The translations under genes and the position numbers were made by a program. DNA of 40,771 bases from a virus, in IMG/VR virus record IMGVR_UViG_3300045955_000313, positions 1 through 40,771 of that record. The stretch is one strand, 5' to 3'. This document shows positions 1,243 to 20,134 of this stretch, in pieces. Every line of letters begins with the position of its first letter. The first letter of the stretch is position 1. The notes under the pieces are model-generated. The model was not told the DNA's origin, searched no databases, and saw nothing but the letters and a program-made list of their open reading frames with translations.

Positions 1243-4200
1243 TAGAATTTACTCCATGAATCTGTCAAATAGAGCAGTTTGATGTTGCGAAAGATGGGCA
1301 CGTTTGCCATAGTTGCATCTGTGGTGGTGTCATCGATTTGCATGCGCACGCAAACCTCGCATGCGTTTGTTGAGGTGCACGAGCCATTTGGTGTGATCGC
1401 TGCGCTTTGTACAGTCCACTGGTCATTTTGCGCAAAGCCCGAGTTGAAATTCACATCTGCCGCTACCGTAGATCCCCACGTGGAGTTGAGCGCAGCACTG
1501 TGTTCTCTTTGCGCAGCACTGATGTCCATTGCAAGATCTTGGTTGGTGAAGGTTGTATTGGAGTTCGCGCCTGTGATGACTGCATATACGCTACCCGTAG
1601 CCGCATAGCCCACGAGTGTAGTGCACCCTTCCGCGCGAGAGGTGTTTGCCACATCAGTGCAATTCAGTGCAGACCTCGGAGCAGAGCCATTCACCACCGC
1701 AAGTTCTTCTGCGCATGTGCTCCCTGCCGGACCTGAGGTGCTAGTCGCTCTGAGCTCAATGTCCGCCGTCTCATAGGCGTAGTATTGGCTGTTCTGGTAC
1801 TTGAACATGTTGCGACGAGAGGCATTATCAGGGTCAATACAGATCACATCGGCTGCCGCCTCACTGTCGAAAAAGCAAAACTGTCGGTTCACCGGAACCG
1901 CAAACTTCACATCCACTGGCGTGTCTGTGTCCAGCACGAATGTGCCCGCCGCAACGTAGAACCGTGCACAGAGACCTCCTGAGCCCTCGCAGAACTTCAC
2001 CGACTTCGTTGCGCTACTTGCATCATCAAATATCAAGCCATTGGTACCCATAGTGATGGTGGGTGACGCTCCACTGGCGTTGTAAGCCGCCTGGAGGGTA
2101 GTCGCGAGCGGGGTGTTGACATAGACAACCTCACTCCAGAGCGTCCCATTCCATCGTAGCACAAGCGTGTCGGGCACACGCGAGAGTTGATCTGAGGACA
2201 CCGTACGGGAAGAGACCCGCAATTCCAACCCTGTGCTATCATCGAGTTTGACCCCCTCGCCAAAGTCTGGATCGCCTGCCCCGAGTAAGACGCACTCCTG
2301 TCCCACGGTCGTGCCCGCGATAATTTGTGGGTTCGAGGTGAGGTCGACAAATTCACTTCCCGCGGTTGAGGACTTCACCGGGACAACGTGTTGTAGATTG
2401 CAGTTGATTTGTGAGCTCTCGCTCAGCGATTGCACGGTAGCGGTGTTCAGCAGCAGTTTGCGGACCGTGACATCGCGTGCGGTAAAATCTCCGGTGGAGT
2501 TGATGCGAATGGTTGGATTCGTCGCGGCTCCAGACGGATTGTCAATCGCGATGCCGTTACTTGACTGAAGACTCGCAATCGTGGTGACGCCGGCAGCCGT
2601 TCTGCGGAGGAGCCCATTACTGCCGGGGTCGCTGAGGTCACCGATTTTGATCCAGGTGTTGGTGGTCGTGCAGACATATAATTCCGACCCTCCACTGTCC
2701 GTGTCGTGATGCTGCTGTCCTTCCGTGCAGGTCGCTGGCAGCGATGTGCTGCGGGTAGCAGGCTTGCTACTGTCAGCAGCCCCCGCGTCAAGCGTGTCTC
2801 CGCTGGCAGCGGTCAAGGCGCTGACGTCGCCGCTGCTATCCGTCCACACGTCGGTGATGTCGCCACTGCCTGCCGCCCCTTGGACCACCCAGGTGTTGGT
2901 GGATTCGCACAGATACCAACGCGAGCCGCTCGTCGCGTCGGTGTCCATGTACATATCGCCGGTCGTGCAGGTGGCCGGCAACGTGGTGGAGTTGGGCACG
3001 CGCACGGTCTTACTGGTCAAGACGATGGTGGCAGGGAGAGAGGCGGTTGCGGTCGAGCCTTCGCCTGGGGTGTGGCTTACGGTGATTTCGTTTGCTGTGC
3101 CGGCCACATCAGCCACGTAGTTGCCGGTGGTATCGGTGGTCAGTGCCACGCTATCGGCCTGAATGGTGGCCGTTACGCCGGAGGTGACAACATCACCTGC
3201 GAGCGGGCCAAGCTGAAACGTGCCGCTGGCGTCAGGCAGTGTCCAGGTGCGGTCAGCCGTCAACGTGCCGGCCTCAATCATGCCTTCGATGGTGTCGGCG
3301 GTTGGTCCTTCAAAAAAGACGCCCGTCGCGCCAAAGTAGGCCGTGCCGCCAGCAAAGCCAGGGCTGTTGGCGAGTGTTGAGGCGGTGTTGAGATCGATCC
3401 AGTTGATCGAGGTGTCGGTAATCTCACTCGAGCCAATGGCGTTCGCGGCAATCGTTGTGGTAAATGTTCCTGTTCCTGTCCCTGTCACGTCGCCCTGCAG
3501 GGTAATAGTTTGGTCGCCAGTGTTGGTGCCACTCAAGCCGGTAACGGCAATGGTCATGGTGTCGGTGGTTTCGTTGCCGGTGATCGTGATGGGTGCGGTC
3601 GCTACCCAGTTGAGGGTATCGGTGGCGGTGTCCGCCACCGGATCAGTGCCAGCGGGTGCGTTCATTGTCGTGAAGGCATTGATGGCAATGGGGGTACAGG
3701 TACCGTCACCGAGCACGCCGGTGGTCGTGTTGCACGTGCCAGTGATACCAGTAAATGTCACCCACTCGGCAAAGGTGTTGATCTCTTCATCGCGGGTGAT
3801 CGCTGCGGCCAGCCACCCATCGTCGAGTGTGCCAGCCCCACCAGTTTTGGGAATGGCATTCGTGCTAGGGGTCGCCGTGGCGATCTCATCACTGCCCCCA
3901 TGCTGATGCGAGGTGGCATGCGCCGTGGGCGTGCGAGCATTCGAGAGCCGGGCATCGTTGCCTTGCACCACGACATTGGCCGCATTCTCGCCGTCCGTGG
4001 CAAGCTCAACCACGCCGGTGGCGGTCGTGGTGGCGGCAGTGACCGCGACCGTGAGCGTATCAGTGGTTGCATCGCCGGTGATCGTGATGGGTGCGGTCGC
4101 TACCCAGTTGAGGGTATCGGCGGTAGAGTCCGCAACCGGATCAGTGCCAGCGGGTGCGTTCTGGGTGGTGAAGGGGAGTGGATACTCGGTGACGATTTCA

Positions 4201-4616
4201 TTGATGGCGGTCTGGACGTTCGTGGCAGCGAGAGAGCCAGCAGGGGTGTTGGTGATCTCTGCTGCGATGTAATCGCCTGATGCGGCAGTGACAACGCCCG
4301 TGCGTCCCTCAAATGAGGTGACGCCAGAGGAAGATGCGCTTGAGGTCGTGACCCATTCGCCGGTTTGGTCACAGACGCCCGTATTCCCGCCGTCTTCAGG
4401 GGTTTTACAAATCCAGGTCGTGCCGTCATCCAGGTCTGTGCAGAGCTGGTGCAACGTGGCGGGCACGTTGGTGCGGCAGTCGGTGGCGTGGGTGAGTGGG
4501 GTGGCAGTGGCAGAGGTCGAAGGAACGTTAACAATCTGCGCGCGAGCAAGCGCGGGCAGAATCAGGAGGGACGCAAAAAAAAAACGCGGGAAATTCTCAT
4601 TGTTGGACGCCCTCAA
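1242..4616 (-). CDS. Large repetitive tail-fibre-like protein with signal peptide
   Basis: This 1124-residue Ser/Thr/Ala/Gly-rich protein has internal duplications. The segment NAPAGTDPVAD...NWVATAPITITG occurs twice, and modules of the type LPATC...TNTW occur twice. Low-complexity beta-rich repeats in the late operon, just before the G8 spike, suggest a fibre or adhesin. The open frame starts with TTG at 4616, but a better start is the ATG at 4600. That ATG forms an ATGA overlap with the upstream gene and would give a clean signal peptide (MRISRVFFFASLLILPALA). It is out of frame here because of a run of ten A (T on the coding strand) at 4575-4584; one more or two fewer bases would restore it. 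This may be a sequencing error or a slippage switch. Confidence 0.7.
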   Translation of the reverse strand: MRASNNENFPRFFFASLLILPALARAQIVNVPSTSATATPLTHATDCRTNVPATLHQLCTDLDDGTTWICKTPEDGGNTGVCDQTGEWVTTSSASSSGVTSFEGRTGVVTAASGDYIAAEITNTPAGSLAATNVQTAINEIVTEYPLPFTTQNAPAGTDPVADSTADTLNWVATAPITITGDATTDTLTVAVTAATTTATGVVELATDGENAANVVVQGNDARLSNARTPTAHATSHQHGGSDEIATATPSTNAIPKTGGAGTLDDGWLAAAITRDEEINTFAEWVTFTGITGTCNTTTGVLGDGTCTPIAINAFTTMNAPAGTDPVADTATDTLNWVATAPITITGNETTDTMTIAVTGLSGTNTGDQTITLQGDVTGTGTGTFTTTIAANAIGSSEITDTSINWIDLNTASTLANSPGFAGGTAYFGATGVFFEGPTADTIEGMIEAGTLTADRTWTLPDASGTFQLGPLAGDVVTSGVTATIQADSVALTTDTTGNYVADVAGTANEITVSHTPGEGSTATASLPATIVLTSKTVRVPNSTTLPATCTTGDMYMDTDATSGSRWYLCESTNTWVVQGAAGSGDITDVWTDSSGDVSALTAASGDTLDAGAADSSKPATRSTSLPATCTEGQQHHDTDSGGSELYVCTTTNTWIKIGDLSDPGSNGLLRRTAAGVTTIASLQSSNGIAIDNPSGAATNPTIRINSTGDFTARDVTVRKLLLNTATVQSLSESSQINCNLQHVVPVKSSTAGSEFVDLTSNPQIIAGTTVGQECVLLGAGDPDFGEGVKLDDSTGLELRVSSRTVSSDQLSRVPDTLVLRWNGTLWSEVVYVNTPLATTLQAAYNASGASPTITMGTNGLIFDDASSATKSVKFCEGSGGLCARFYVAAGTFVLDTDTPVDVKFAVPVNRQFCFFDSEAAADVICIDPDNASRRNMFKYQNSQYYAYETADIELRATSTSGPAGSTCAEELAVVNGSAPRSALNCTDVANTSRAEGCTTLVGYAATGSVYAVITGANSNTTFTNQDLAMDISAAQREHSAALNSTWGSTVAADVNFNSGFAQNDQWTVQSAAITPNGSCTSTNACEVCVRMQIDDTTTDATMANVPIFRNIKLLYLTDSWSKF
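3576..3662. repeat. 87-nt internal duplication in fibre gene, copy 1
   Basis: This 87-nt stretch is nearly identical to 4074-4160. Both encode the NAPAGTDPVAD...NWVATAPITITG module of the fibre, so the gene has grown by internal duplication. Confidence 0.8.
4074..4160. repeat. 87-nt internal duplication in fibre gene, copy 2
   Basis: Partner of the copy at 3576-3662. The two differ at only a few bases, mostly around 4121-4136. Confidence 0.8.
4575..4584 (-). repeat. Homopolymer A10 (T10 on coding strand) in fibre signal peptide
   Basis: Ten consecutive A on the plus strand lie within codons 5-9 of the fibre gene as counted from the ATG at 4600. With ten bases that ATG runs into a stop after 12 residues. 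With 11 or 8 bases it joins the long fibre frame. Confidence 0.9.
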
Positions 4617-5151
4617 GGTATGCGTTGATCGTGCCGGACGAATACGATGACACGCGGGCCTTTACCCATTTGCTGGGCATGGTCACGTTGATGATGCTGT
4701 CTGCTGAGACGGACGCGGCTTGTATCTCGTGGTCATTGTTGGCGGGTTTGGCCGGGGCGTTTGACACGTTCACGATCACTGTTGCGGTGGTAATGCCGCT
4801 CACGTGGATGGTGTAGGCATTAAAAGCTTCGACGGCGATCCAACTGCCGTCTCCGGTTGCTGCTGCGTCGGCAAGGAGCGTGGCACGCTCTACCCTGCGT
4901 CCGTGAATGGTGTTGAAGTTCTGCGCGTCGGCTGGGACTGCAGCGCCCAGCAGGAGGAGGAACAGCAGGACGCGGAGGATGGGCTGCTTATCCTGGTCAA
5001 GGGGCGGGTCTTGCGGGCGTTTTTGGAGCAAGCCGCCAAGCATGGCGAGTGCAGCGGTGAGCGCGTCTGGCCAATCCCCACCCACTGCGAGCCCTGCGGC
5101 GGCAGCCGTGGCGAGGTTGGCCACGAGTTTGAGCATGGTGACAAGTGACAT
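4597..5151 (-). CDS. Virion-associated protein with N-terminal membrane segment and internal signal-like segment
   Basis: This 184-residue protein belongs to no family I recognise. It looks composite. Residues 1-50 are an alanine-rich helical, possibly membrane-inserting segment (MLKLVANLATAAAAGLAVGG). A short charged linker (QKRPQDPPLDQDK) follows, then a second very hydrophobic stretch ending in AVPADAQ like a signal-peptide cleavage site, then a beta-rich domain of about 105 residues. I see no ATG, GTG or TTG that would start the second half alone. The stop overlaps the probable ATG of the fibre gene (ATGA). It may be a fusion of a holin-like peptide and a secreted tail component, but that is a guess. 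Confidence 0.65.
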   Translation of the reverse strand: MSLVTMLKLVANLATAAAAGLAVGGDWPDALTAALAMLGGLLQKRPQDPPLDQDKQPILRVLLFLLLLGAAVPADAQNFNTIHGRRVERATLLADAAATGDGSWIAVEAFNAYTIHVSGITTATVIVNVSNAPAKPANNDHEIQAASVSADSIINVTMPSKWVKARVSSYSSGTINAYLEGVQQ

Positions 5152-5159
5152 AGCGCCTC

Positions 5160-5369
5160 TTAGGTCAAGCTGATGCTGGTCGAGCCAATGGCGTGCGTGG
5201 CCTCATAGTCCGTGTCGGTCACGCCGCCGTCATCATCGAGTTTCGCCAGCACAAGGTTCAGATCCGTCTTCACTTCGTTGCCCAGTGTCGACGTGGCTTT
5301 GAGTTGGCGGATCAATTCGTTCTTGGTCGAGCGGGGCAGCGGTAGTCGATTGAGTTGTGATGCTCTCAT
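5160..5369 (-). CDS. Small hypothetical late protein (69 aa)
   Basis: I do not recognise this 69-residue protein. The first half is basic and helical (RSTKNELIRQLKATS); the second half is acidic (LDDDGGVTDTDYEATH). It starts with an ATGA overlap on the 207-residue gene upstream and stops 9 bases before the next start, so it is cotranslated within the late operon. Its size and position fit a small virion or chaperone component. Confidence 0.65.
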   Translation of the reverse strand: MRASQLNRLPLPRSTKNELIRQLKATSTLGNEVKTDLNLVLAKLDDDGGVTDTDYEATHAIGSTSISLT

Positions 5370-5989
5370 GCGGCCTCCTGTTCGTAGACCATGATGGAAA
5401 AACGTGGAGTTTTGCGATGAATGGGGAGGGAGGGCGTCATGTGTGGCTGGTCGGGGGAGCGCACGCCCAGATAGCGCCCGTTCTCAATGGGATACTCCCA
5501 TGTGTCAATGACTGCGTGTTGCAGGACTTCCAAGACTGCACGCGAGACGGTCGTGAGTTCTCCATACGGAACGGAAAACGCATTGCCGTTGACGCAGCCC
5601 GTGATGGGGCGGTTTTCGTTCGCGTGGGGCGCGATGTAGATTTTGACGAGTTCCTTGCCATTCACGGGACCACGGGGCGTCTCACGCTCAAGCGGTTCAC
5701 CCTGCGGGGTGACGAGCCCGTGGGGCTTGAGGGACTTCACGATGTCGGCAATGGCCGTGCTCTGCTGGAGGATCAGGTGTTCGAGCCGGTCCAGGCGGGC
5801 ATGGTCGCTGGCATCGTTTTCCTGGTCGAGGCGCTGTTCCTCGGCCTTCGCGTCCTGCGCTGCCTGTCGCTCGTCGTCTTCCACGGAGCCCGTGAGGTAC
5901 TCGCCGACGGGCTCTGGCATCTGTGCGAGTGCGTCTTCGGCGTGCTTCTGCGCTTCGTTGAGCAGTTCGGCTTCGGTTTTACGCGCCAT
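5366..5989 (-). CDS. Hypothetical late virion protein (207 aa)
   Basis: This 207-residue protein has an acidic, coiled-coil-prone N-terminal half (AEEQRLDQEND, ARLDRLEHLILQQSTAIADI) and a C-terminal globular part rich in beta-strand residues (KELVKIYIAPHANENRPITG). The start ATG at 5989 has a GGAG ribosome-binding site. The gene lies between the capsid and fibre genes, where head-decoration or connector proteins are common, but no family was recognised and the role is open. Confidence 0.7.
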   Translation of the reverse strand: MARKTEAELLNEAQKHAEDALAQMPEPVGEYLTGSVEDDERQAAQDAKAEEQRLDQENDASDHARLDRLEHLILQQSTAIADIVKSLKPHGLVTPQGEPLERETPRGPVNGKELVKIYIAPHANENRPITGCVNGNAFSVPYGELTTVSRAVLEVLQHAVIDTWEYPIENGRYLGVRSPDQPHMTPSLPIHRKTPRFSIMVYEQEAA

Positions 5990-6203
5990 GATGTCGAAAT
6001 CTCCGTGTGGTGGGGGTCGGAGGAGTTGGTTCGATCAGCGCCGCAATCCGCACATGCGAGTGCACGAGGAAAAGAAAATCTGCGGCATCGATCTCAAACG
6101 GCACACCCACGGGAAAGACTTTACGGTGGTCGTTAATGGACATGACGCGCGTTTCCCCTGGCGTGATGGTGGTATGCGGATCGGGGGAGATCAGTGCTTT
6201 CAT
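5979..6203 (-). CDS. Small hypothetical late protein (74 aa)
   Basis: A 74-residue protein with no recognised family. It overlaps the next gene's start by 11 bases and begins 7 bases after the stop of the 137-residue gene, so it is inside the late operon. The composition is mixed, with a hydrophobic centre (DAADFLFLVHSHVRIAALI) and a proline/threonine/arginine-rich tail. Confidence 0.6.
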   Translation of the reverse strand: MKALISPDPHTTITPGETRVMSINDHRKVFPVGVPFEIDAADFLFLVHSHVRIAALIEPTPPTPTTRRFRHHGA

Positions 6204-6209
6204 GGGTGC

Positions 6210-6623
6210 CTATCGATCGCCTTTGAATGCCAGGATCATGTTGCGTCCGCTGTTGGTCTGGTGGTCGGCGGGGATGCTGACACCAGGGGCGGTGATATGC
6301 CCTGCGCTGGCAAAGGTGCCGTCGCGGTCAATATGTTTGCCATCGGTGTTGGCGGTCTCGGTGCTGGCGATGGTATCGCCGCCTGCGTACTTGCTGATGC
6401 CGGAGGTGTCGCGGGTCACGACGCCAGTCGAGCCTGTGACCAGGAGACTCAGCGCAGCCGCCCATTGCGCGTGCTTGTCGTTGTTAAACCAGAGATACAG
6501 GTTCGGGTTGGTGCCGCCGTGGTTCTGAATGAACAGCACGGCATCAGGGACAAAGCCCAGTTCGGCGTGCACGATGGCGGCGGTCGAGGCGCTGATAAAT
6601 TCAATAGTGGCTATTTGTGACAT
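6210..6623 (-). CDS. Hypothetical head/virion protein downstream of capsid (137 aa)
   Basis: A 137-residue protein directly downstream of the major capsid gene, with an 18-base gap. It has no recognised domain. The central part is rich in Gly/Thr/Ser and looks beta-structured (VTGSTGVVTRDTSGISK); the start is hydrophobic. Its place right after the capsid gene fits a decoration or head-stabilising protein, by analogy only. Confidence 0.65.
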   Translation of the reverse strand: MSQIATIEFISASTAAIVHAELGFVPDAVLFIQNHGGTNPNLYLWFNNDKHAQWAAALSLLVTGSTGVVTRDTSGISKYAGGDTIASTETANTDGKHIDRDGTFASAGHITAPGVSIPADHQTNSGRNMILAFKGDR

Positions 6624-6641
6624 GGTGCGCTCACTTATGGG

Positions 6642-7649
6642 TTATGGGTTGGCATCGCCAACGGTCACCTCGCCTCGGGTCATAAAATTGTCGTTCAAAA
6701 TTTTACGTGCGCCGGTATGTTTCCAGCCACTCGTGGAGAGCTGGTTGAGGGGATCGGCCACGCCGGCAGAGCCCAAGGGCTTGATGATGTTCTCTAAAGA
6801 CATGCCTTCGAGCGGCACCGTGGCTATCGCTTCTTTGCCAAAGAGCAAGAGCGAGTAGACATCGGCGTTGCTGCTCGTGGATTTCACGTCGCCTGACGCG
6901 GCGCCGCCGCCGCCCAGCCAGGCTTTGGCTTGGGTCGTCTGGATCCAGCGCGTGTTCTTGTAGGCCCCGACTTCGCCGTCCATCACTTTGGACTCAGAGG
7001 CGTACTCTTCCACGCTGATCCAGCCGGGCATCTCCTGCATGGTGAAGATCACATTGACATGGGTGATGCCGATGTAGGCGGGCCGGATCGGGAAGGTGCT
7101 GACCTTGGTGGTCGCCGCGACCATCTCGGTAAACATGCTGGCGTTGTTGGCGTGCAGATAGCGAATCATCCGGTCGAGGAGCGTCGGATCGACTTTATGC
7201 GTGGTGGTGGTGAGGTTCGCACGGGCGGTCTGCCCGCCACCGTAAAAGACGGAGGTGCCGGCGGCGGCGACGTCGCGGAGCAGCGCGTCGAGCGTCTGTC
7301 CACTCTGCTCGCCTAAGAGGTCGTTGGCTTCATTCAGGAGGTCATTCTCAACCGTTGCGCGTCCAAAGTCGGTGAGGGTAACATAATCTCCCCATTGCTG
7401 GAGCGTGGCACTGATGTCCGTTTTGCTCATTTGCCGTCCCGTTGGCGGCGATCCCTCGGTGATGGCGGCCAGCGCGAGCGCGAGGGCCTCAAACCGGCGC
7501 ATGACAATAGTGTTGCCGTTGCGCTTGGCGAGGCTGCGCCGCTGGGCTACCTTTTGATACGCCAGGTAGGGCAACGCCCGCATTAAGAGTTTGCGGTCGA
7601 AATAACTGGCGACGGCGGGCGGGATCGTGACACTGGTGGTGACTGCCAT
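6642..7649 (-). CDS. Major capsid protein, N4-gp56 family
   Basis: A 335-residue protein forming the phage head shell. The N-terminal region (PPAVASYFDRKLLMRALPYL) and the central motif GNTIVMRRFEALALA followed by QWGDYVTLTDFG match the N4-gp56 / P22-coat-like HK97-fold capsid family as I know it. The length is typical. The start ATG at 7649 has a strong GGAGGAG site that overlaps the stop of the scaffold-like gene, so the two are coupled. This is one of the anchor genes identifying the window as a tailed phage. Confidence 0.85.
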   Translation of the reverse strand: MAVTTSVTIPPAVASYFDRKLLMRALPYLAYQKVAQRRSLAKRNGNTIVMRRFEALALALAAITEGSPPTGRQMSKTDISATLQQWGDYVTLTDFGRATVENDLLNEANDLLGEQSGQTLDALLRDVAAAGTSVFYGGGQTARANLTTTTHKVDPTLLDRMIRYLHANNASMFTEMVAATTKVSTFPIRPAYIGITHVNVIFTMQEMPGWISVEEYASESKVMDGEVGAYKNTRWIQTTQAKAWLGGGGAASGDVKSTSSNADVYSLLLFGKEAIATVPLEGMSLENIIKPLGSAGVADPLNQLSTSGWKHTGARKILNDNFMTRGEVTVGDANP

Positions 7650-7652
7650 AGC

Positions 7653-8426
7653 TTAACTCCTCCGATTGACTTCCGCGCGGAAGTCGTCTTCCGACATATT
7701 CCAGACATCCTGGGCCGTGCGGGGCTGTTGCGCGGTCTGTCGTCCGCCGGCGCCCTGCACGACTTTCAGGGCGGCACCTTTGGTGGCGTTCTGGATGGCT
7801 TTGGTGACATCCTTTGCGCCCTCGGTGCGAGCACCGATCGCGTTACGAATGGCGCGGATGGTCTGCACGAGATTGCCGTTGCTCTTGGCGTGCACTTCGT
7901 GCAGCAGGCCCAGCATGTAGCGATCTTCTGGGCCGAGCATCTGGAGAAAGGGAGCAATCTCTGGGTTCTGGCGGGTCAGTGGCGCAAGGTAGGTGTTGAC
8001 GACGGAATCGTAGTCGTTGCCCTTGCCGAGCGTGTGTTCGCTGTAGAGTCCACGGGCGCGTTGATCATCACTGGCACGCTGTAAGCCTTGCTCAATCCTC
8101 CAGTCGGAGTATTCGATCAGGTCTTTCTCGGTCCACTGCTGGCGTGGCTTGCTGAAAAATTCGGGGGCACGCGGTTGCTGTCGGAAGTTCGGGTCACTCA
8201 AGTTGCGCAGCGAGGACTCGAGCTCGCGGTTGCGGCGCTCTAACGCCTCAAAGCGGGCCGTGTAATCAGGAGGGGGGGAAGACGCTGGGGTAGGCGTCTC
8301 CCCCGATGGCGCTGGCTCGCTGACACTTGTGGATTCCTCTCCCGCGTTGAAATCGACGGGTTCCTCAGCCGTCTGCGGCTGTTCCTGCTCACCTGTATCA
8401 AATCCGCTCACTTCTTCCGCTTCCAT
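7653..8426 (-). CDS. Scaffolding-like protein upstream of capsid
   Basis: A 257-residue, highly charged protein with a disordered acidic N-terminus (about residues 1-55, rich in E, P, S and T), a predicted coiled coil (ARFEALERRNRELESSLRNL) and a helical C-terminal half. It lies immediately before the major capsid gene, the usual place of a scaffold in podoviruses. It is the first gene of the roughly 20.9-kb leftward late operon. Its AAGGGAA ribosome-binding site overlaps one copy of the TTTGATAC motif in the divergent promoter region. Assignment rests on composition and position, not on a recognised domain. Confidence 0.65.
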   Translation of the reverse strand: MEAEEVSGFDTGEQEQPQTAEEPVDFNAGEESTSVSEPAPSGETPTPASSPPPDYTARFEALERRNRELESSLRNLSDPNFRQQPRAPEFFSKPRQQWTEKDLIEYSDWRIEQGLQRASDDQRARGLYSEHTLGKGNDYDSVVNTYLAPLTRQNPEIAPFLQMLGPEDRYMLGLLHEVHAKSNGNLVQTIRAIRNAIGARTEGAKDVTKAIQNATKGAALKVVQGAGGRQTAQQPRTAQDVWNMSEDDFRAEVNRRS

Positions 8427-8435
8427 ACGTTCCCT

Positions 8436-8507
8436 TTTGATACAATTTAGTGTAGTACCGTATCAAATACGCTACGTTATAGATTCGGATATGTACCAAT
8501 TTGATAC
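8436..8507. promoter_or_regulatory. Divergent late control region with three TTTGATAC motifs
   Basis: Between the leftward (8426) and rightward (8491) late operons, TTTGATAC occurs at 8436-8443, inverted at 8460-8467 (GTATCAAA), and again direct at 8500-8507 just inside the small terminase gene. The first two form an inverted pair. The arrangement fits an operator or activator site controlling both late operons. A possible -10 for the rightward operon is TTATAG at 8477-8482, without a convincing -35. Confidence 0.45.
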
Positions 8508-9012
8508 GAATGTCAAGTCAGCAGACGGCAGAAAGCCGCCGCGTCAGCCCATGACCCCGGAAAAGCGGGCGAAAATGGAGGCGGGCAAGCAGCGACGCAA
8601 AGAAGAGCGGTTCAATATTTTGGCGGGTCGCGCGTCTGGCGATGTGCTGCCCGGCATTACGCGGTGGGATCAGATCGAGCAGACCTCGCTTGGCCGAAAA
8701 ATGACCGGACGAGAACGGCAGGCGCTTTCGGAAGCCGGCTGTCGGTGGCTCAATGAGCGGGCCATCGACCTGCTGGAGTACGCCTATGCCATCGTGAAGG
8801 GGACCATCAAAACAGACCGGGATGATGGGCCTCGGATCGCGCTGTTGCGGCAGATTGTCGGCACGATTCTCCCGGCGGCGCGTGTGCCGCAGGAGGAGCA
8901 AAGCGAGAGCAAAGTGACGCGGATTGTGATTGGCGCGCCGCTCAAACGCCTCATCGAGAAAGGCGTGACGGTCGCGGCAGAAGTGCGAGAAGGAGACGCG
9001 GCCAATGAATGA
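8491..9012 (+). CDS. terS: Putative small terminase subunit
   Basis: A 173-residue basic protein directly upstream of, and overlapping by 8 bases, the large terminase. It would bind phage DNA at the packaging start and recruit the large subunit. The N-terminus is lysine/arginine rich (PEKRAKMEAGKQRRKEE) and the centre is helical. The frame is open upstream to 8329, but the upstream part lies in the divergent scaffold gene, so I take the ATG at 8491. Its ribosome-binding site is weak. The call relies mainly on position and size. Confidence 0.6.
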   Translation: MYQFDTNVKSADGRKPPRQPMTPEKRAKMEAGKQRRKEERFNILAGRASGDVLPGITRWDQIEQTSLGRKMTGRERQALSEAGCRWLNERAIDLLEYAYAIVKGTIKTDRDDGPRIALLRQIVGTILPAARVPQEEQSESKVTRIVIGAPLKRLIEKGVTVAAEVREGDAANE

Positions 9013-11452
9013 CGAGGGTGAACTACGCTACACGCCAAACCCCAGTGCTATTGCGATTCATGATAGTGCCTACAAAATCAAAGCTATTTGTGGGCCTGTC
9101 GGGAGCGGGAAAACCTCGGTTGCGTGCTGGGAGTTCTTTCTGCTCTGTCACGACAGCAAGGTCCCCGTGCGGGGCGTCGTCATTCGGGAGTCCTACCGTG
9201 AACTCCAAGACTCCACGCGCAAAACGTTCTTTGAGTGGTTTGGGGAGTTCGCAGAGTACAAAGAGAAGAACGAGACTGCGCTCCTCACCATTCCTGGGGC
9301 CGATGGAAAGGTGAGAACGCACGAGCTCATGTTCCGGGCATGTCGCAAAGAGTCGGACGCGACGAAATTTTTATCGACGGAGTTTGCCTTTGCGTGGCTT
9401 GAGGAAATCTGCCCCGTCTACACGTCGAAAGGCGTGATGGGCCAGGGCTTGCCGATGGGCGTCTTTGATGTCGCAAAGATGCGGATTCGCCAGAAGCACG
9501 CGCCGCGCCTCGAAATCGTCTTGACCTTCAATCCGCCGAATACCCGGCACTGGGTCTACAAAGAAATTTTCGTCAAGACGCCGGCGGAATTAGACCGCAA
9601 AGGCTATGCCCTCTTTCGGCAACCGGCCTACGAGAACAAAGAAAATCTCCCCACAAACTACTATGAGGAATTGACGGAAACACTTTCGCCCGATTTAGCG
9701 CGGCGCTTCGTGCAGGGCGAAGTCGTTACTATGTACGAGGGCGAGCGTGTGTTTCCAGAGGCCAAGGATAACTGGCATATCGTGGAGCATGTGGATCCGT
9801 TGCCGGGGTTGCCGCTTATCCTGGGGCAAGACTATGGATTGTGTTACGACGACAAAACAGAAGTATTAACTGACAAGGGCTGGCTCTTCTTTCGAGACGT
9901 GCCGGATGACGCCCGATTTGCGACGCTCAATCCTGAAACGCGAGAGGTATCGTATGCGTTTGCGGACAAACGAGTTGCAGAGCCCTACTCTGGCGAAATG
10001 CTGGAATGGGCAACCGCCGCAGTGAACATTTGCGTTACGGCTGACCATTGGGTGCCGTGGGTTGATGACCATGATGAAAAACGGGCTGTGCGGTGGGCGC
10101 AAGCGAAACAACTTGCACAGCGGAGAGGTTCTCATCATTGCGTACTCGTGACTGGGCAGTGGCGTGCACCAGCATTTGATCCCCAAGCAACCTACGGACC
10201 GTTAGGGTGGGATGCGCTCACGTTTTGCGAATTTATGGGGTGGTATTTGAGCGAGGGGAGTTGTGACGGGACATATCGAGTCAATGTGGCGCAACAAGAG
10301 CGGCACTTGAAGCTTGAGCAATCACTTGACGCTACAGGGTTGACATGGCGACGAGCAGCAACAAGTTACCGAATCTCCCATCGGGGTCTTGTTGCCTACT
10401 TGTCGCAATTTGGAAAAGCAAAAGAGAAATTTGTTCCTGATGAAATCAAGCAATTCCCTTCATGGCTCATCCGACGGTTTATTGATAGCTACACACTGGG
10501 CGATGGCAACCGGCGCGTGCGAGCAAACGGGGCGGAAGAACATACAGTATATACTACGTCTGCTCGCATGAAAAATGACATGCAAGAGTTAGCACTCAAA
10601 GCGGGATGGCATTCCTCCGTGCGGGGAATGAAGCCTCAGCGCTCTTATATTCAAGAAGCCTCTGGGGTGCGAGCGATTCGGGGAACAGGGGGCTATAATA
10701 TAACCTTTAAGAAGCGAGCCTCTGAAGCACGGCTCTTGCCGAATAAGCTCCGGCGCTTTCATTATGAGGGGATGGTGTATTGTGTGCGCGTGCCGTTTCA
10801 CACACTTTATGTGAGGCGTAATGGGAAGCCTTCATGGAATGGAAATACCCCCTGTTGCCTTATCACGCAAATTACTCCTGGCGGGCAATGGAGATGGTTG
10901 CGCGAGTTGCAACTTTGGAACAAAGGAATGCGGGCATTTGTCGAGTTTCTTGTCCCGATGTTAAAAAATGAGTTCTTCGGCTACCAGGTACAAACCATCT
11001 GGCAAGATCCGCAGGGTGGGAACATGCGGGTGCAAACAGATGAGACAACGTGCGCTGATATTCTGCGGGCGGCAGGCTTCAACGTACAGGATGGTCACAA
11101 TAACTGGGCGTTACGAAAAGAAGTGATGAAGCAGCGGCTTGAAATTGCCCCTAATGGAGAGCCGGGAGTATTAGTGTCTCGGTATGGCTGCCCGATGGCA
11201 GCAGAGGGATTACTGGGGGCATACCGATATGCGAAGACTGCGGACGGTCTTGTCGCGTCCGTCCCTATTAAGAATGAAGCGAGCCACTTACAAGACGCCG
11301 CGCAAATGATTGCGGTTGGTGAGTTCTCGGTGATGAGTGGGCTAGCAAAAATGGAAGAGATAAAACAGAAAGTGCGGCTCAGGCCGGTGCATAATCCGCT
11401 GGCGTCGAATCGTGCGCCGCGTAGCAATGCCCTGGGATGGATGGGAAGGTAA
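9005..11452 (+). CDS. terL: Large terminase subunit with in-frame intein
   Basis: An 815-residue precursor. Residues 1-279 carry the packaging ATPase, with Walker A GPVGSGKT at 30-37 and a Walker B-like region FAFAWLEE near 126-133. The host frame then reaches GQDYGL, the first acidic motif of the RNase-H-like nuclease. There it is interrupted by a 335-residue intein (280-614) and resumes at TPCCLITQITPGG. After splicing the terminase would be 480 residues, a normal length. Mature TerL powers DNA into the procapsid and cuts concatemers. It follows terS with an 8-base overlap; a broken endolysin and an HNH gene lie downstream before the portal. Confidence 0.9.
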   Translation: MNDEGELRYTPNPSAIAIHDSAYKIKAICGPVGSGKTSVACWEFFLLCHDSKVPVRGVVIRESYRELQDSTRKTFFEWFGEFAEYKEKNETALLTIPGADGKVRTHELMFRACRKESDATKFLSTEFAFAWLEEICPVYTSKGVMGQGLPMGVFDVAKMRIRQKHAPRLEIVLTFNPPNTRHWVYKEIFVKTPAELDRKGYALFRQPAYENKENLPTNYYEELTETLSPDLARRFVQGEVVTMYEGERVFPEAKDNWHIVEHVDPLPGLPLILGQDYGLCYDDKTEVLTDKGWLFFRDVPDDARFATLNPETREVSYAFADKRVAEPYSGEMLEWATAAVNICVTADHWVPWVDDHDEKRAVRWAQAKQLAQRRGSHHCVLVTGQWRAPAFDPQATYGPLGWDALTFCEFMGWYLSEGSCDGTYRVNVAQQERHLKLEQSLDATGLTWRRAATSYRISHRGLVAYLSQFGKAKEKFVPDEIKQFPSWLIRRFIDSYTLGDGNRRVRANGAEEHTVYTTSARMKNDMQELALKAGWHSSVRGMKPQRSYIQEASGVRAIRGTGGYNITFKKRASEARLLPNKLRRFHYEGMVYCVRVPFHTLYVRRNGKPSWNGNTPCCLITQITPGGQWRWLRELQLWNKGMRAFVEFLVPMLKNEFFGYQVQTIWQDPQGGNMRVQTDETTCADILRAAGFNVQDGHNNWALRKEVMKQRLEIAPNGEPGVLVSRYGCPMAAEGLLGAYRYAKTADGLVASVPIKNEASHLQDAAQMIAVGEFSVMSGLAKMEEIKQKVRLRPVHNPLASNRAPRSNALGWMGR
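9842..10846 (+). mobile_element. Intein with LAGLIDADG homing endonuclease inside terL
   Basis: The insertion starts with Cys280 (CYDDKTEVLTDKGW, a typical intein N-terminal block) and ends with Asn614 (PSWNGN), followed by Thr615 as the +1 nucleophile. The residue before the final Asn is Gly rather than the usual His. Two LAGLIDADG-type motifs are visible, GWYLSEGS near residue 411 and RRFIDSYTLGDG near residue 490, so it should encode a homing endonuclease as well as protein splicing. The insertion falls directly after the catalytic-aspartate motif of the terminase nuclease. Confidence 0.88.
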
Positions 11453-11453
11453 G

Positions 11454-11700
11454 ATGTCACTGGTAGACAAGCAAGATAAGTTTACGTCGATGGTGGCCGC
11501 GTTGATTCTGCGAGCGGCTCGCTATTGATCTCAACCTCTTTCGCAACGGACGGTATCTTGATGCGAGTGAGGACCATAAGGCGTTGGGGGAATGGTGGGA
11601 GTCGATTGGTGGGGCATGGGGCGGGAAATTTGTTGGTAGAGATGGAAGGCCGACACCAGATGGGAATCACTATAGCCTTCCTCACGAGGGGCGCAAATGA
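11454..11700 (+). pseudogene. Broken M15-type (L-alanyl-D-glutamate peptidase-like) endolysin
   Basis: The first frame from ATG 11454 reads MSLVDKQDKFTSMVAALILRAARY and then stops at 11526-11528. The shifted frame from about 11517 to the stop at 11700 reads RLAIDLNLF...WWESIGGAWGGKF...DGNHYSLPHEGRK, the conserved C-terminal half of VanY/M15-like phage endolysins. The roughly 40-50 middle residues, including the SLH part of the zinc-binding motif, are missing. The bases CGGCTCGCTATTG at the junction fit both the lost N-side and the C-side codons, which suggests a deletion between short repeats. As it stands it cannot encode an active lysin. Confidence 0.7.
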
Positions 11701-12308
11701 GCTTTCATGTGAGTAGCATGATTGGGATAAACGACAAGGTTCCTTGGTCGATTGTCTTGTTTATTGCCATTCTTATGATGTACCTCTTCTCTTTGAAGAA
11801 TGAGCCTGCCAAGCATCTTTTCTGCAACAAGGATATGTTCAAAAACATACCCCTTACCATCGGCGCGATGGTGTTGTGGGTGAAGAATCTTTCTGTAGCC
11901 CTTTTTAAGAATAAAAGGGTGAGCGCGTGCAATGCCGCAACACTTCCGGGAGCAGTAGCGGGCCTTTTCGTAGCGGTGCCGCGATACCTTAAACAATTTC
12001 CAACAGGCTGCACATCGCTTGTCTTTCCAAGAGGGAGCAATAGAACGAGGCTGAACATTCCTCCATACAGTGAGATAATGCCGACGACAAAACCCTCTGC
12101 CGAAGTGGGGGGCTTCACATCCATACTGGCATTTCTTCTTTGGCCGCTGAGGTTTCCCCTGCTCACCAAATGTTTTCCCTCTTTGCCATTTGCCATAGCA
12201 TGTTTGCGAACAAAAGGGGCGTTCAGACTGTCTCCAACGTGTCGGCCTGCGGAAAGGTTGATTGCAAGCGGTACATTTCAATGCGTGAGCATTTATCATG
12301 CGTGACAC
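11682..12308 (-). CDS. HNH homing-type endonuclease
   Basis: A 208-residue (199 if started at the ATG at 12299) zinc-finger/HNH nuclease. Two Cys pairs occur in each of two N-terminal zinc-finger-like segments (CTACNQPF...FCSQTC and CAACWKLF...YCSRKC). The C-terminus carries the HNH core FEHILVAEKMLG...EEVHHKNGNKQDNRPRNLVV. It lies on the opposite strand to its neighbours terL and portal, with its 3' end overlapping the broken endolysin by 19 bases. This is typical of a selfish endonuclease inserted between structural genes. Its presence next to a damaged endolysin may not be a coincidence. Confidence 0.85.
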   Translation of the reverse strand: MSRMINAHALKCTACNQPFRRPTRWRQSERPFCSQTCYGKWQRGKTFGEQGKPQRPKKKCQYGCEAPHFGRGFCRRHYLTVWRNVQPRSIAPSWKDKRCAACWKLFKVSRHRYEKARYCSRKCCGIARAHPFILKKGYRKILHPQHHRADGKGYVFEHILVAEKMLGRLILQREEVHHKNGNKQDNRPRNLVVYPNHATHMKAHLRPS

Positions 12309-12367
12309 ATATCATAGTTTTGCAGTGATGGCAATCACTACTGGTTCACAATCATAAGGAGAATCCT

Positions 12368-14287
12368 ATGGCAGCAAGCGCACGTCAGTATGAGGATGAG
12401 AGTAAAGAGGAATACGGCAAAGTGACCGCGCAAAAGTTGCGAGCCTGGTTCTCAGACTCGTACAGGGCGCATGAGGAGTCACGCGGGCAATTTGTCGAGT
12501 CCCTCAAAATGCTGAACAACGACCAATGGCCGGACCATCTCAAAGCCAAGCTCTATGAGCAGAACATGGCACCAGTGGTGATTAACAAGATGCTCATGCC
12601 AGTCATGTTCCTCTCTGGTGTCCAGCGCCAAACTCGCAATGAACCGAAGCTCATCCCGTTTGAAGGTGGCGATGTGCGGAGCACAGAGCTGATGAATGCC
12701 GTACTCCACTGGGTCGTGGAACAGAGCAACGGGGCAGAGATGGATTCCCGCGTCTTTCTGGACAAGGCCGCGCTGGGCCTGGGCTGGTGGAAATGCACGG
12801 TCGATTACGAGAGCGACGATATTGAAGGCACGATTTGCGTCAAACGCCGGCATCCCTTGGCGATCTTTCCCGACCCGAACTGGTTCGATGCCGGGGACTG
12901 GAGCGAAGCGGAGTATGTGCACGATGCGCAGTGGTACACGCCAGCCGAGGCGTGCGCCAAGTGGCCGGAGTATGACGAGCTGTTCAAACGGCATCAGGGG
13001 GAATGGATGCAAGCGCGGCAGGGGGACTCTGGTGGTGGGGCGACGATGGCGGAGCATTCCGGCGATTCGCTGACCGCCGATCGGCTCTTTTTTGATCCCC
13101 TCACCAAGCGGGTGCGGGTGATCGAGTGCTGGTATAAGGAGCGCACGAAAGTGACCGTCGCGCTGAATACCATGACCATGCAAACCGAGAACGATCAGGA
13201 GCGTGTCAAGGAGATGCAGCAGCTCGCCAAGACGCTGCCACCGTGGGAAGCGCAGCACCTCGTTTTCATCAAGAAGGAAGTGCCGCTGGTGCGGGTCGCG
13301 CATTTCTTTGAGGACACGTTGCTTGATGATGACGTGTCGCCATACGAGCGTGCGCCAACCAGTTTTCCGATCTGGCCGAGCCTGGGCCTCTATTTTTGGA
13401 AAAACCCGTTTGGGCTTGCCGAGATGATGAAAGACCTCCAGCGAGAGAAGAACAAGCGACGCTCCAAGCTCATTGAACTGGTCGGACGGATGCCATTGTC
13501 AGGCTTTTTTAACAAGACCGCTGGTGGTGCGGATCCCAAGCAAATAGAAGAATACGGCTCTGGGAATGGGGTCGTCATTAACTACGATCAGCAAGAGCCT
13601 ACCCCGATTCGTCCGCCAGACTTACCAATGGCGGTCGTCCGACTTGAGGACAAGAGCGACGAGGAAATTAAGGATGTGCCCAACGTCCACAACGAGCTGC
13701 TGGGTCAGGCGACACAAAAGACGATCTCGGGGCGAGCGATCGAGGCGCGGCAGCGGGGGGGCCTCGTCTCGCACGAATACCTGTTCGACACCTTTCGCAC
13801 GGATCAGGCGGCAGTGAGCAAGTTTCTGGTCGCGCTGATTAAGCAGTATGTTTCTCCGACGAGAGCGCTTCGGATCTTGGGCTCAATCGCGGTGCGGCAG
13901 CCTGACTCCCAGATCGCGGGCATGATGGGCGCGGCGAACGCGGACGCCATCGCCGCGATGGAGATTCAGGAGGCGCTGAGTGCAGCCTATGATACCGAGT
14001 ATGATTGTGTGGTGAGCTCGCGGCCGGCAGAGCCCAGCCTGGCCATGCAAGCGTGGGAAACGCTCTCAGAGATGAAGAGCAACGGGGCGGATATCCCTCC
14101 CAAGGTGCTCTATGAAGCAGCCCAGCGAGCGGGAATTCTGACGGAGGATCAGGTCAAGGAGATTTTGGCCTACATTCAGCAGATGATGATGGGGCCGGCG
14201 GCGAGCGCGGGGGCTGTTCCTCCTGGGGCATCCTCACCAGGAGTGAGCGCGGATTCTGGTCGACTCCCGCCAGTCATGCCACAGTAG
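12368..14287 (+). CDS. Portal protein, P22-like
   Basis: A 639-residue protein forming the dodecameric DNA channel at the head vertex. The N-terminal region (ARQYEDESKEEYGKV, then NKMLMPVMFLSGVQRQTRNEPK) and the later segments RRHPLAIFPDPNWFDAGDWSEAEYV and KTISGRAIEARQRGG match P22-type portals as I know them. An AAGGAGAAT ribosome-binding site precedes the ATG at 12368. The C-terminus is helical and ends in a low-complexity Gly/Ala/Pro/Ser tail. It is the last gene of the rightward late cluster and is followed by a strong hairpin at 14298-14319. Confidence 0.87.
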   Translation: MAASARQYEDESKEEYGKVTAQKLRAWFSDSYRAHEESRGQFVESLKMLNNDQWPDHLKAKLYEQNMAPVVINKMLMPVMFLSGVQRQTRNEPKLIPFEGGDVRSTELMNAVLHWVVEQSNGAEMDSRVFLDKAALGLGWWKCTVDYESDDIEGTICVKRRHPLAIFPDPNWFDAGDWSEAEYVHDAQWYTPAEACAKWPEYDELFKRHQGEWMQARQGDSGGGATMAEHSGDSLTADRLFFDPLTKRVRVIECWYKERTKVTVALNTMTMQTENDQERVKEMQQLAKTLPPWEAQHLVFIKKEVPLVRVAHFFEDTLLDDDVSPYERAPTSFPIWPSLGLYFWKNPFGLAEMMKDLQREKNKRRSKLIELVGRMPLSGFFNKTAGGADPKQIEEYGSGNGVVINYDQQEPTPIRPPDLPMAVVRLEDKSDEEIKDVPNVHNELLGQATQKTISGRAIEARQRGGLVSHEYLFDTFRTDQAAVSKFLVALIKQYVSPTRALRILGSIAVRQPDSQIAGMMGAANADAIAAMEIQEALSAAYDTEYDCVVSSRPAEPSLAMQAWETLSEMKSNGADIPPKVLYEAAQRAGILTEDQVKEILAYIQQMMMGPAASAGAVPPGASSPGVSADSGRLPPVMPQ

Positions 14288-17004: not shown

Positions 17005-17556
17005 TCACTCTTCCTCCCACCACTGCATGCGCTCCTTGATAAGGGCATCATAGGTGAGCACATCCAACTGGTGCTCCACGATGGGCAGCAGGTCATACAA
17101 TTCCGAGAGGTAGAGCGCCCAATACTCCTGCTCGTCCTGGGTGTAGCGCGCTGGGCAGCGGTGTGTGGCCCGGTAGGCAATGCCAGCGACGTCTGCCTCT
17201 GCCGTCAGCTCGTGAAAGAGATCACACGTCTCTGCGAGTGTGCGGTGATACCAGAGGAAATACGCTCGCAAGAGCCGGTCTTTGACTGCCCGCTCTCTCG
17301 CGGCATGCTCGCTCTCGTACGCAGGGAGTTCCTTGCCGACGAGACGCGCAGCGTCACGAAAAGAGAGGCCCCGCTTGCGCCGCAGATAGGAAATGGCATC
17401 GCCAGAGGCCAAGCAGCCAAAGCAGTGAAATACGTCCTTTTCGATATTCACCGAGAATGACGGCGTGTGTTCTTGATGGAACGGACAACAACACCACGCC
17501 TCGCCGTTGCGGATCGTCACTGCTGCGTCTTGCTGAAGGAGGTCCAGGAGCGTCAT
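17005..17556 (-). CDS. CHC2 zinc-finger primase fragment (DnaG-type N-terminal domain)
   Basis: A 183-residue protein with the classic DnaG zinc-finger pattern: CPFHQEHTPSFSV followed by HCFGCLASGD, with likely Zn ligands Cys24, His27, Cys45 and Cys48. It would recognise the template for primer synthesis. No Toprim catalytic domain is present, so it must work with another protein; the DUF3987 ATPase encoded just downstream is the natural partner. Its ATG overlaps the stop of the DUF6745 gene (ATGA). Confidence 0.85.
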   Translation of the reverse strand: MTLLDLLQQDAAVTIRNGEAWCCCPFHQEHTPSFSVNIEKDVFHCFGCLASGDAISYLRRKRGLSFRDAARLVGKELPAYESEHAARERAVKDRLLRAYFLWYHRTLAETCDLFHELTAEADVAGIAYRATHRCPARYTQDEQEYWALYLSELYDLLPIVEHQLDVLTYDALIKERMQWWEEE

Positions 17557-18812
17557 GATTCAAACATCGGGTGATATTCTTCGGGCTCAAGGTTGAACGT
17601 CCACGCGATGGCCTCCTGCGCGTTCGTCATGTCTGGGGGAACCCGAAGGAAGTAATCTTTGAAGCGTGACGGTTCTCCGCACTGGCAGGAGCGGACAGAC
17701 CGTTCTGTGGTCAGCAGTCCGCCACACTTGGCACATGGCTCTGGTGTTGCGTTGACGACTTTCACCATGACAATCGGCTCATCCCCGTGCTGCTCCATTC
17801 TGTAGAGGGTGCCATACGTATCCGCATGAATGATGCGTGCTCCTGCATCGAGGAGATACCGAGATGTGCCATACCGTTCGACTATCACACGCCTGACTTC
17901 GGCGTTCTGTTCGTCTTGGATATGCTTGAGGGTTATCTCGTGAGGCCGTTCAACTATAAATTCTGGCACTCTCACGCCATTGACGGCATAAATTTTCCAC
18001 CCATCGGGGTAGGCAATAGCAGGACCAGAGAGCGAATGGAGACGTCCACGATCATTACGTGATAACATATGATGTCGTTCGGAGACCCAACAGAGCTTTG
18101 CGTGGGGCAGCACCCATCCTGCACTTTCGGCAAGTTGCCAAAGGCCGTTTATTTTTTCGGTTTCTTTCGTGAGATGACAAACCTCGTAAAAGTAACGATA
18201 AAAACTAATCCAGCCAGCGTCATGCTGACCATAGATCGAGTCCCGCACCGAATCCCCAACTGCGTCCCGCACCGAGTCCCGCACCGAGTCCCGCACCGAG
18301 GCCCCAACTGCGTCCCAAACCGAGGCCCAAACCGAGGCCCCAACTGCGTCCCAAACCGAGGCCCAAACCGAGGCCCAAACCGAGTCCCGCACCGAGTCCC
18401 GCACCGAGGCCCCAACTGCGTCCCGCACCGAGGCCCAAACCGAGGCCCCAACTGCGTCCCAAACCGAGGCCCGCACCGAATCCCCAACTGCGTCCCGCAC
18501 CGAGTCCCGCACCGAGTCCCAAACCGAGGCCCAAACCGAGGCCCCAACTGCGTCCCAAACCGAGGCCCGACTGTTTAAGAATTTCTGATTGAGTATAATT
18601 GCCCGAGTGATCCCTTGAGAGAGCGGAGATCCACACCAGACAATTGTTTTTGGGGGAGACAGGTTGGCACAGCGATACGACTCAATGATGGCTTGTTCCG
18701 CCTGTTCTCTATTCGCTGGTTCGGTAGAAAGGCCAATAGCGGTCCATTTCTCAACAAATTCAGCAAATCGCGCCTCTTGCTGTGCGGTGAGAGTTTCAAT
18801 TTTCTTTTTCAT
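17553..18812 (-). CDS. DUF6745-domain protein with tetrapeptide repeats
   Basis: A 419-residue protein. Residues 1-80 (QEARFAEFVEKWTAIGLSTE) and the C-terminal part (GPAIAYPDGWKIYAVNGVRV, then VERPHEITLKHIQDEQNAEV) resemble DUF6745 proteins, whose function is unknown. Residues 83-194 consist of 28 units of four residues, [A/D]-[S/A]-V-[W/R/G], the last being DSIY. A cysteine-rich segment near the C-terminus (CAKCGGLL...CQCGEP) may bind zinc. It sits between the primase and a conserved small gene. The array could fold as a regular beta-solenoid or helix stack; this is inference. Confidence 0.75.
   Translation of the reverse strand: MKKKIETLTAQQEARFAEFVEKWTAIGLSTEPANREQAEQAIIESYRCANLSPPKTIVWCGSPLSQGITRAIILNQKFLNSRASVWDAVGASVWASVWDSVRDSVRDAVGDSVRASVWDAVGASVWASVRDAVGASVRDSVRDSVWASVWASVWDAVGASVWASVWDAVGASVRDSVRDSVRDAVGDSVRDSIYGQHDAGWISFYRYFYEVCHLTKETEKINGLWQLAESAGWVLPHAKLCWVSERHHMLSRNDRGRLHSLSGPAIAYPDGWKIYAVNGVRVPEFIVERPHEITLKHIQDEQNAEVRRVIVERYGTSRYLLDAGARIIHADTYGTLYRMEQHGDEPIVMVKVVNATPEPCAKCGGLLTTERSVRSCQCGEPSRFKDYFLRVPPDMTNAQEAIAWTFNLEPEEYHPMFES
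18231..18566. repeat. 28 x 12-bp tandem repeat coding for tetrapeptides
   Basis: Twenty-eight contiguous 12-bp units such as GCCTCGGTTTGG, GACTCGGTGCGG and GACGCAGTTGGG on the minus strand, differing only at a few positions. Each unit keeps the reading frame, so gain or loss of units would change protein length without breaking it. The long frames on the plus strand here are by-products of the repeat. Confidence 0.9.
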
Positions 18813-19804: not shown

Positions 19805-20134
19805 CTTGCACGTCCCACCCCGCAGTGATGAAAGATGCAACTTGACCCGGACTGGTCGAAAGACCGTGTTGTCTTTGGCTTGCACGTCCCACCCCGCAGT
19901 GATGAAAGATGCAACCGCATGGAGAAGCTCTCTCAGCACTACCAGTCAGAACTTGCACGTCCCACCCCGCAGTGATGAAAGATGCAACTGGGGTAATGAC
20001 ACGACTGTGCCCTTTTGGGTGAAACCTTGCACGTCCCACCCCGCAGTGATGAAAGATGCAACACCGGACCCTTGGGGTGGTACTGGCAGAGGTTATCCTT
20101 GCACGTCCCACCCCGCAGTGATGAAAGATGCAAC
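19805..20134. CRISPR. CRISPR array: five 37-nt repeats, four spacers
   Basis: Five identical 37-nt repeats at 19805-19841, 19879-19915, 19952-19988, 20026-20062 and 20098-20134. On the plus strand the repeat begins CTTGCACGTCCCACCCC and ends GTGATGAAAGATGCAAC; its ends are short inverted copies (TTGCA/TGCAA). Spacers are 37, 36, 37 and 35 nt and all different. The 3' end is like that of Cas12f-type repeats (GAATGAAGGAATGCAAC), which favours plus-strand crRNA. The neighbouring effector is on the minus strand, and the decayed unit on the left would favour the opposite direction. No cas1 or cas2 is present. I found no spacer match elsewhere in the window by eye. Confidence 0.95.

Follow-up and report, generated by a model that had tools for sequence, protein, structure and literature searches.

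A probable mobile class 1 intein placed after the first nuclease motif of a phage large terminase

A large terminase subunit (TerL) gene of a virus was found to carry a long in-frame insert in its nuclease domain, which raises the question of what the insert is, how it came to lie there, and whether its position serves the phage. The window that we analyzed is a stretch of 40,771 nucleotides (positions 1 to 40,771 of IMG/VR record IMGVR_UViG_3300045955_000313). The gene is a single open frame of 815 codons with zero internal stops (Table 1), and its product matches Terminase_3 of Pfam above the cut-off (E = 2.9e-10) as well as the PHROG terminase large subunit (E = 5.6e-27). It also has a Walker A motif (GPVGSGKT), the RNase H-like nuclease ligands D276, D668 and H761, and the predicted folds of a TerL. 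A P22-like portal gene lies downstream (12368-14287, Pfam E = 2.4e-82). The interval that separates terL from the portal gene holds a free-standing HNH_3 endonuclease gene that runs against both (11682-12308, minus strand, E = 1.5e-9) and is possibly a second homing element beside terL. The minus strand also carries the gene for the major head protein (6642-7649), near the plus-strand terL and portal genes (span 6642-14287), an arrangement of head and packaging genes that is out of the ordinary.

Table 1. Position of the features of the intein-split terL gene in the window.
Feature	Position	Strand	Basis
terL precursor gene (intein-split large terminase, 815 aa)	9005..11452	+	open frame; Terminase_3 and PHROG matches
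N-extein, 279 aa: ATPase domain and first nuclease strand, ends GQDYGL	9005..9841	+	ATPase fold match
Codon of Asp276, predicted first nuclease metal-binding Asp (motif I)	9830..9832	+	invariant in 11/11; weak profile alignment to D294
Probable class 1 intein, 335 aa, from C1 to GN, then T+1	9842..10846	+	in-frame translation, homology, TliVMA fold match
Predicted LAGLIDADG homing endonuclease domain (about precursor residues 392-573), acids E417 and D500	10178..10723	+	fold matches, alignment
C-extein, remaining nuclease domain, begins T-P, with D668 and H761	10847..11449	+	nuclease fold, alignment

The insert takes up precursor residues 280-614, with junctions that read GQDYGL/CYDD...WNGN/TP (slashes mark junctions throughout). 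Its boundaries are fixed by homology, because 11 precursors align and the joined exteins match TerLs that are free of an intein. The in-frame translation and this homology agree to the base with the 335-residue intein of the original prediction, whose figure of 480 residues for the TerL left after intein removal (815 - 335) is likewise correct. In an alignment of the 11 distinct precursors occupied at this site, Cys1, Thr345, His348, the F-block Cys593 and Trp-Asn-Gly-Asn (611-614) are invariant. Class 1 inteins have Cys, Ser or Thr at position 1, TxxH in block B, and a C-terminal Asn or Gln followed by Cys, Ser or Thr at +1; here, position 1 is Cys in 11/11, T345 and H348 are present in 11/11, and the window reads GN/T at its C-terminal junction. 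The penultimate His, usual but not obligatory in this class, is absent and replaced by Gly. All 11 inserts are preceded by D-x-G-L, and are followed by Thr (nine) or Ser (two) at +1 and by Pro at +2 in every case. Class 3 inteins have no nucleophile at position 1 and carry a Trp-Cys-Thr triplet in blocks B, F and G (PMC5050341); we ruled out this class by Cys1 and by the block G residue before Gly-Asn, which is Asn and not Thr. The insert is thus a real class 1 intein that is probably competent to splice. Its GC content is 0.518, against 0.547 and 0.532 for the exteins (at third positions 0.496, against 0.681 and 0.567); as 8.7% of window stretches of the same length have a composition as low, we regard the lower GC as no more than suggestive.

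Profile libraries alone leave the identity of the intein unsettled, since the Pfam match to LAGLIDADG_3 is weak and falls below the cut-off (E = 0.0015). A structure was predicted for the whole precursor (mean pLDDT 78.1, pTM 0.47). Model residues 283-606 match the TliVMA intein (7qsu; Z 22.4, rmsd 4.8, 295 aligned), and within them the LAGLIDADG endonucleases I-DmoI (residues 396-573; Z 13.1, rmsd 2.9, 146 aligned) and I-Tsp061I (residues 393-573; Z 13.8) are matched as well. The archaeal TliVMA intein and the yeast PI-SceI each join a splicing domain to a LAGLIDADG endonuclease, and the fold predicted here is alike; they are 18% and 12% identical to the window intein over the aligned part and sit in another host protein, so that the match is at the level of the fold. 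Both active-site acids of the endonuclease are kept in the same-site alignment, E417 in 10/11 (Asp in the remaining one) and D500 in 11/11. Outside the intein, the model matches the ATPase of P74-26 TerL (residues 1-243; Z 19.2, rmsd 3.4, 214 aligned) and, across the intein, the nuclease domains of SPP1 TerL (residues 247-775; Z 16.3, rmsd 3.0, 168 aligned) and P22 TerL (residues 243-777; Z 16.6, rmsd 3.4, 178 aligned). The splice junctions are the least certain parts of the model (pLDDT below 50 at 280-284 and 606-614), and a prediction for the intein only, made without an alignment (mean pLDDT 36), was left out of the analysis.

The insert begins three residues after Asp276 (Asp276-Tyr-Gly-Leu, then Cys1). 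Asp276 and Asp668 are found in 11/11 same-site TerLs, and His761 in 10/11. As a sequence search of solved structures for mapping the catalytic residues gave zero terminase matches, we mapped these residues by fold match and by a weak profile alignment of 11 intein-free TerLs to the TerL of Thermus phage P23-45. In this alignment, which is weak (probability 12.5%, E = 0.0023) and collinear, Asp276 falls on D294 and the Asp of DPxG on D347; the P23-45 residue numbers were confirmed, and G20c numbering fits P23-45. The G20c TerL cannot do without its metal ligands D294, D347 and D429, and its loop L0 (295-301) helps to form the active site (PMC5389553). If the P23-45 alignment is right, the intein probably interrupts loop L0, with the insertion point between the residues that correspond to 297 and 298. 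The original prediction had put an intein with a homing endonuclease immediately behind the first of the catalytic motifs in the TerL nuclease: the endonuclease domain is borne out by its I-DmoI-like predicted fold and the kept acids, and the placement by the alignment, the fold matches and the profile alignment. It is plausible, and a reasonable thing to infer, that a precursor TerL would be unable to cut DNA until splicing.

When viral contigs were scanned with just the insert as query, 37 relatives (28 distinct) came up, comprising 33 of 315-364 residues and four of 142-143 residues that have no endonuclease. All 37 are stop-free and run on into the flanking frames, three of them for just 8 or 9 downstream residues; inspection by eye assigns their flanks to a variety of proteins, including TerL at other places. 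The four short relatives (46% identity for L031-L033, 36% for L034) sit, by eye, in other host proteins.

The same site is occupied in ten further divergent metagenomic TerLs. Among 23 candidate stretches, 17 were a TerL with an intein at the motif I site, three (L043, L044, L062) were, by eye, other TerL-like proteins with an insert at the same motif, two (L045, L058) had their intein in another protein, presumably ThyX judging by its motif, and one (L050) had no intein. An 18-stretch set is formed by the 17 and L185, which by eye ends WNGN/C. The 11-row alignment consists of the window and 10 others, with a single representative of each set of near-identical sequences; it excludes L049 and L054 (truncated by the contig stretch), L185, L043, L044 and L062. 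Two of the 10 (L053, L055) have no TerL start, and L001 and L002 share their contigs with L060 and L063, respectively. The TerL-like frame of L062 (10181-12442, minus strand; assigned by eye) has its insert after the same motif, DWGF/CLDSSTEVL, and this insert seems to end in His-Asn followed by Met, so that it would be without the usual +1 nucleophile. By eye, two inteins each are present in L044 (ORF 3502-8181, minus strand; seemingly at the first and last nuclease motifs), L020 (ORF 1267-4824) and the Mic1 TerL (L064:1-2859). Two short patterns, used in one scan of cellular genomes, had 78 matches there, and not one was a relative. Three precursor queries of named phages returned 0/113, 0/86 and 0/70 matching records with a place covering 80% of the query, considering the best 40 of 113, 12 of 86 and 12 of 70 records listed; a pattern for TerL relatives built from the N-extein only had zero matches in viral contigs.

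To obtain TerLs free of an intein, we used a DNA pattern that describes the joined motif, which gave at least 120 stretches, or 121 together with BcepC6B. The joined motif in these 120 is therefore there by construction, and the set is no measure of intein frequency. The BcepC6B TerL, found by protein similarity, reads DFGLTPA and has no intein. The joined exteins of the window match 120/121 of these TerLs by BLASTP (E of 1e-5 or better), and 120/121 are gapless over the 12 junction residues. An intein-free homologue without the flanking residues, the observation proposed beforehand as one that would speak against an intein, was not seen, and the two flanks adjoin each other in TerLs that have no intein.

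We consider it very probable that the insert is a mobile class 1 LAGLIDADG intein in the nuclease of a phage TerL, predicted to splice out and to home into empty TerL genes. The alternative that survives best, which we still judge unlikely, is an intein that is inherited vertically and still splices, with its homing lost. The window intein is 35-47% identical to the other 10, against 25-33% for the exteins, and the intein value is the higher one in all 10 comparisons. For the close pair L041/L055 the intein is 70% and the extein 74% identical; with intein identity below extein identity, this intein travelled with its gene, and such similar divergence favors vertical inheritance. In an intein tree of 40 rows (11 same-site inteins, 27 other relatives, L044 and L062), whose bootstrap had not settled, the 11 form one group with support 100/100, apart from the 29 other inteins, which again suits vertical inheritance; L044 and L062 are different inteins at the same motif and fall outside this group. 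Within it, the L056 intein groups with those of L041/L055 (99/95), and the L063 intein with that of L057 (98/79). In a TerL tree of 110 rows (11 occupied and 99 empty, of more than 380 residues), however, L063 groups with two empty TerLs (95, starred) and L057 with two others (80), and L056 is far off. Intein presence requires 6 gains or losses on the TerL tree, of which at least 5 are forced by well-supported branches. The best-scoring TerL is an empty one for 8/11 occupied TerLs, although an empty best match is likelier by number alone, as there are 99 empty and 10 other occupied TerLs. Occupied TerLs are also clustered on the tree (0/500 shuffles were as low), a further point for vertical inheritance, and the branches of the window, L056, L063 and L057 are long, with an odd residue make-up of L056 in both trees; for these reasons, the gain counts and tree conflicts should be taken as rough. 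Nevertheless, the disagreeing groupings of inteins and TerLs speak for transfer between TerLs, and an acid is kept at both endonuclease positions in all 11, which, like the at least 5 changes of state on the TerL tree, argues against lost homing. The patchy occupancy would fit a homing element with a mixed history of transfer, loss and vertical inheritance.

As a mobile element, the intein would most likely excise itself after translation, by attack of Cys1, transfer to Thr+1, and cyclization of Asn without a penultimate His, and an ordinary 480-residue terminase would remain. Its endonuclease would most likely cut at the conserved DxGL-TP codons when a co-infecting phage has a TerL gene free of an intein, and repair of the cut gene would then insert a copy of the intein. 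This conserved target for cutting, together with selection against losses that are imprecise, explains the site best, in preference to a regulation of packaging.

Such regulation forms the next alternative: the intein would be kept because its splicing is slow or conditional, so that TerL translocates DNA and cannot cut it until a cue arrives. In its favor, the predicted fold has the nuclease interrupted close to the active site and the ATPase domain in one piece, two Cys (C1 and C593) are among the splicing residues, and a sensor role has been proposed for the TerL inteins of phage Mic1 (PMC7156551). The original prediction had suggested that the penultimate Gly may slow or condition splicing, and this suggestion is unsupported. 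Among the 28 distinct relatives, fetched with patterns that did not include the intein C-terminus, the penultimate residue is Gly in 26 (24 GN, 2 GQ) and Ser in two. It is Gly in 11/11 aligned same-site inteins, and Gly precedes Asn in 14/15 distinct inteins at the motif I site, the exception being the distant L062 (HN/M). The RDF intein of mycobacteriophage Bethlehem, which is in a different host protein, is likewise class 1 with a natural penultimate Gly, and its splicing has been measured: in an endonuclease-inactivated background it splices completely, and with Gly changed to His it needs more than 5 hours for about half splicing (PMC5050341). With Gly ordinary among the relatives and the Gly form of this phage intein splicing completely, the residue gives no reason to expect that splicing is slow or conditional, and we rejected the penultimate Gly as a sign of it. 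Furthermore, five mycobacteriophage TerL inteins are described as splicing readily, with the precursor readily visible for just one (PMC5050341), and many related TerLs (at least 120 stretches) do without an intein. A regulatory role is distinctly improbable. We give equally little credence to a wider version of the idea, in which one group of Gly-Asn inteins recurrently targets the loop after the first catalytic Asp of the nuclease in divergent terminases and, with the ATPase intact and the nuclease broken up to the time of splicing, acts as a timer, so that the motor assembles before cutting is possible.

Two further readings deny protein splicing altogether. A permanent, non-splicing domain insertion is highly improbable, considering that the splicing residues are invariant, that homologues lack precisely the insert, and that, in each of 11 divergent TerLs, it parts a conserved nuclease from its own catalytic Asp. 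The other reading is a self-splicing RNA intron that keeps the frame. Introns, like homing endonucleases, are known from phage genes (PMC12350094), but an intron here has a probability close to nil and was rejected, as Rfam (including its group I and II intron models) gave 0 matches at the gathering score in the window, and the insert is conserved at the protein level along its length and has an intein fold.

Elsewhere in the window, a CRISPR-like array (19805-20134) consists of 5 repeats of 37 nt and 4 spacers of 35-37 nt. It adjoins a gene for a 366-residue protein (20317-21417, minus strand) that PADLOC matches to Cas12f (E = 4e-14) and Cas12u3 (E = 4e-11). Read by eye, this protein shows no clear RuvC motif with the customary aspartate, and may therefore be a nuclease-dead mini Cas12 carried by the phage. 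No relative of it was found in viral contigs, where close relatives only were sought, or in named phages; 33 nt of the repeat had no exact match in genome contigs, and 30 nt of one spacer had none in viral contigs. A 12-nt periodic repeat (18189-18620, 24 overlapping copies listed) lies inside a 419-residue ORF with a DUF6745 match (17553-18812, minus strand), and two 136-nt repeats (3541-3676 and 4039-4174, 84% identical) lie inside a 1124-residue ORF (1242-4616, minus strand) with no PHROG or Pfam match.

Motif I is a new TerL site for an already known kind of element; we found no description of it in the open-access literature searched, with subscription papers largely outside that search. 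Besides the papers cited above, the literature consulted includes PMC6293099, PMC7886860, PMC3556154, PMC7468147, PMC7344957, PMC3868846 and PMC12363816. The window intein extends the known TerL intein sites by one in the nuclease domain, with one intein group present there in divergent terminases, and the 11 distinct sequences make a natural set in which splicing that lacks a penultimate His could be studied. Should the precursor prove nuclease-dead, it would further offer an easy means of uncoupling translocation and cleavage in a packaging motor. TerL inteins have been reported from crAss-like, phiCbK-like and T4-like phages, that of phiCbK being in the N-terminal portion. The mycobacteriophage TerL inteins (Kelley et al. 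2016, PMC5050341) occupy seven sites (a-g), all in the ATPase domain; five were shown to splice and two to cut intein-free alleles. They are likewise at or near functional motifs and include class 1 members without a penultimate His, whereas the window intein lies in the nuclease domain, after motif I. In the cyanophage Mic1, which infects Microcystis, one of the two TerL inteins is also in the nuclease domain (PMC7156551). The window site differs from the seven mycobacteriophage sites and from that of Mic1: read by eye, the Mic1 intein stands before the last nuclease motif (HL/CFVAG...VSN/CDALRY), and the window intein after the first.
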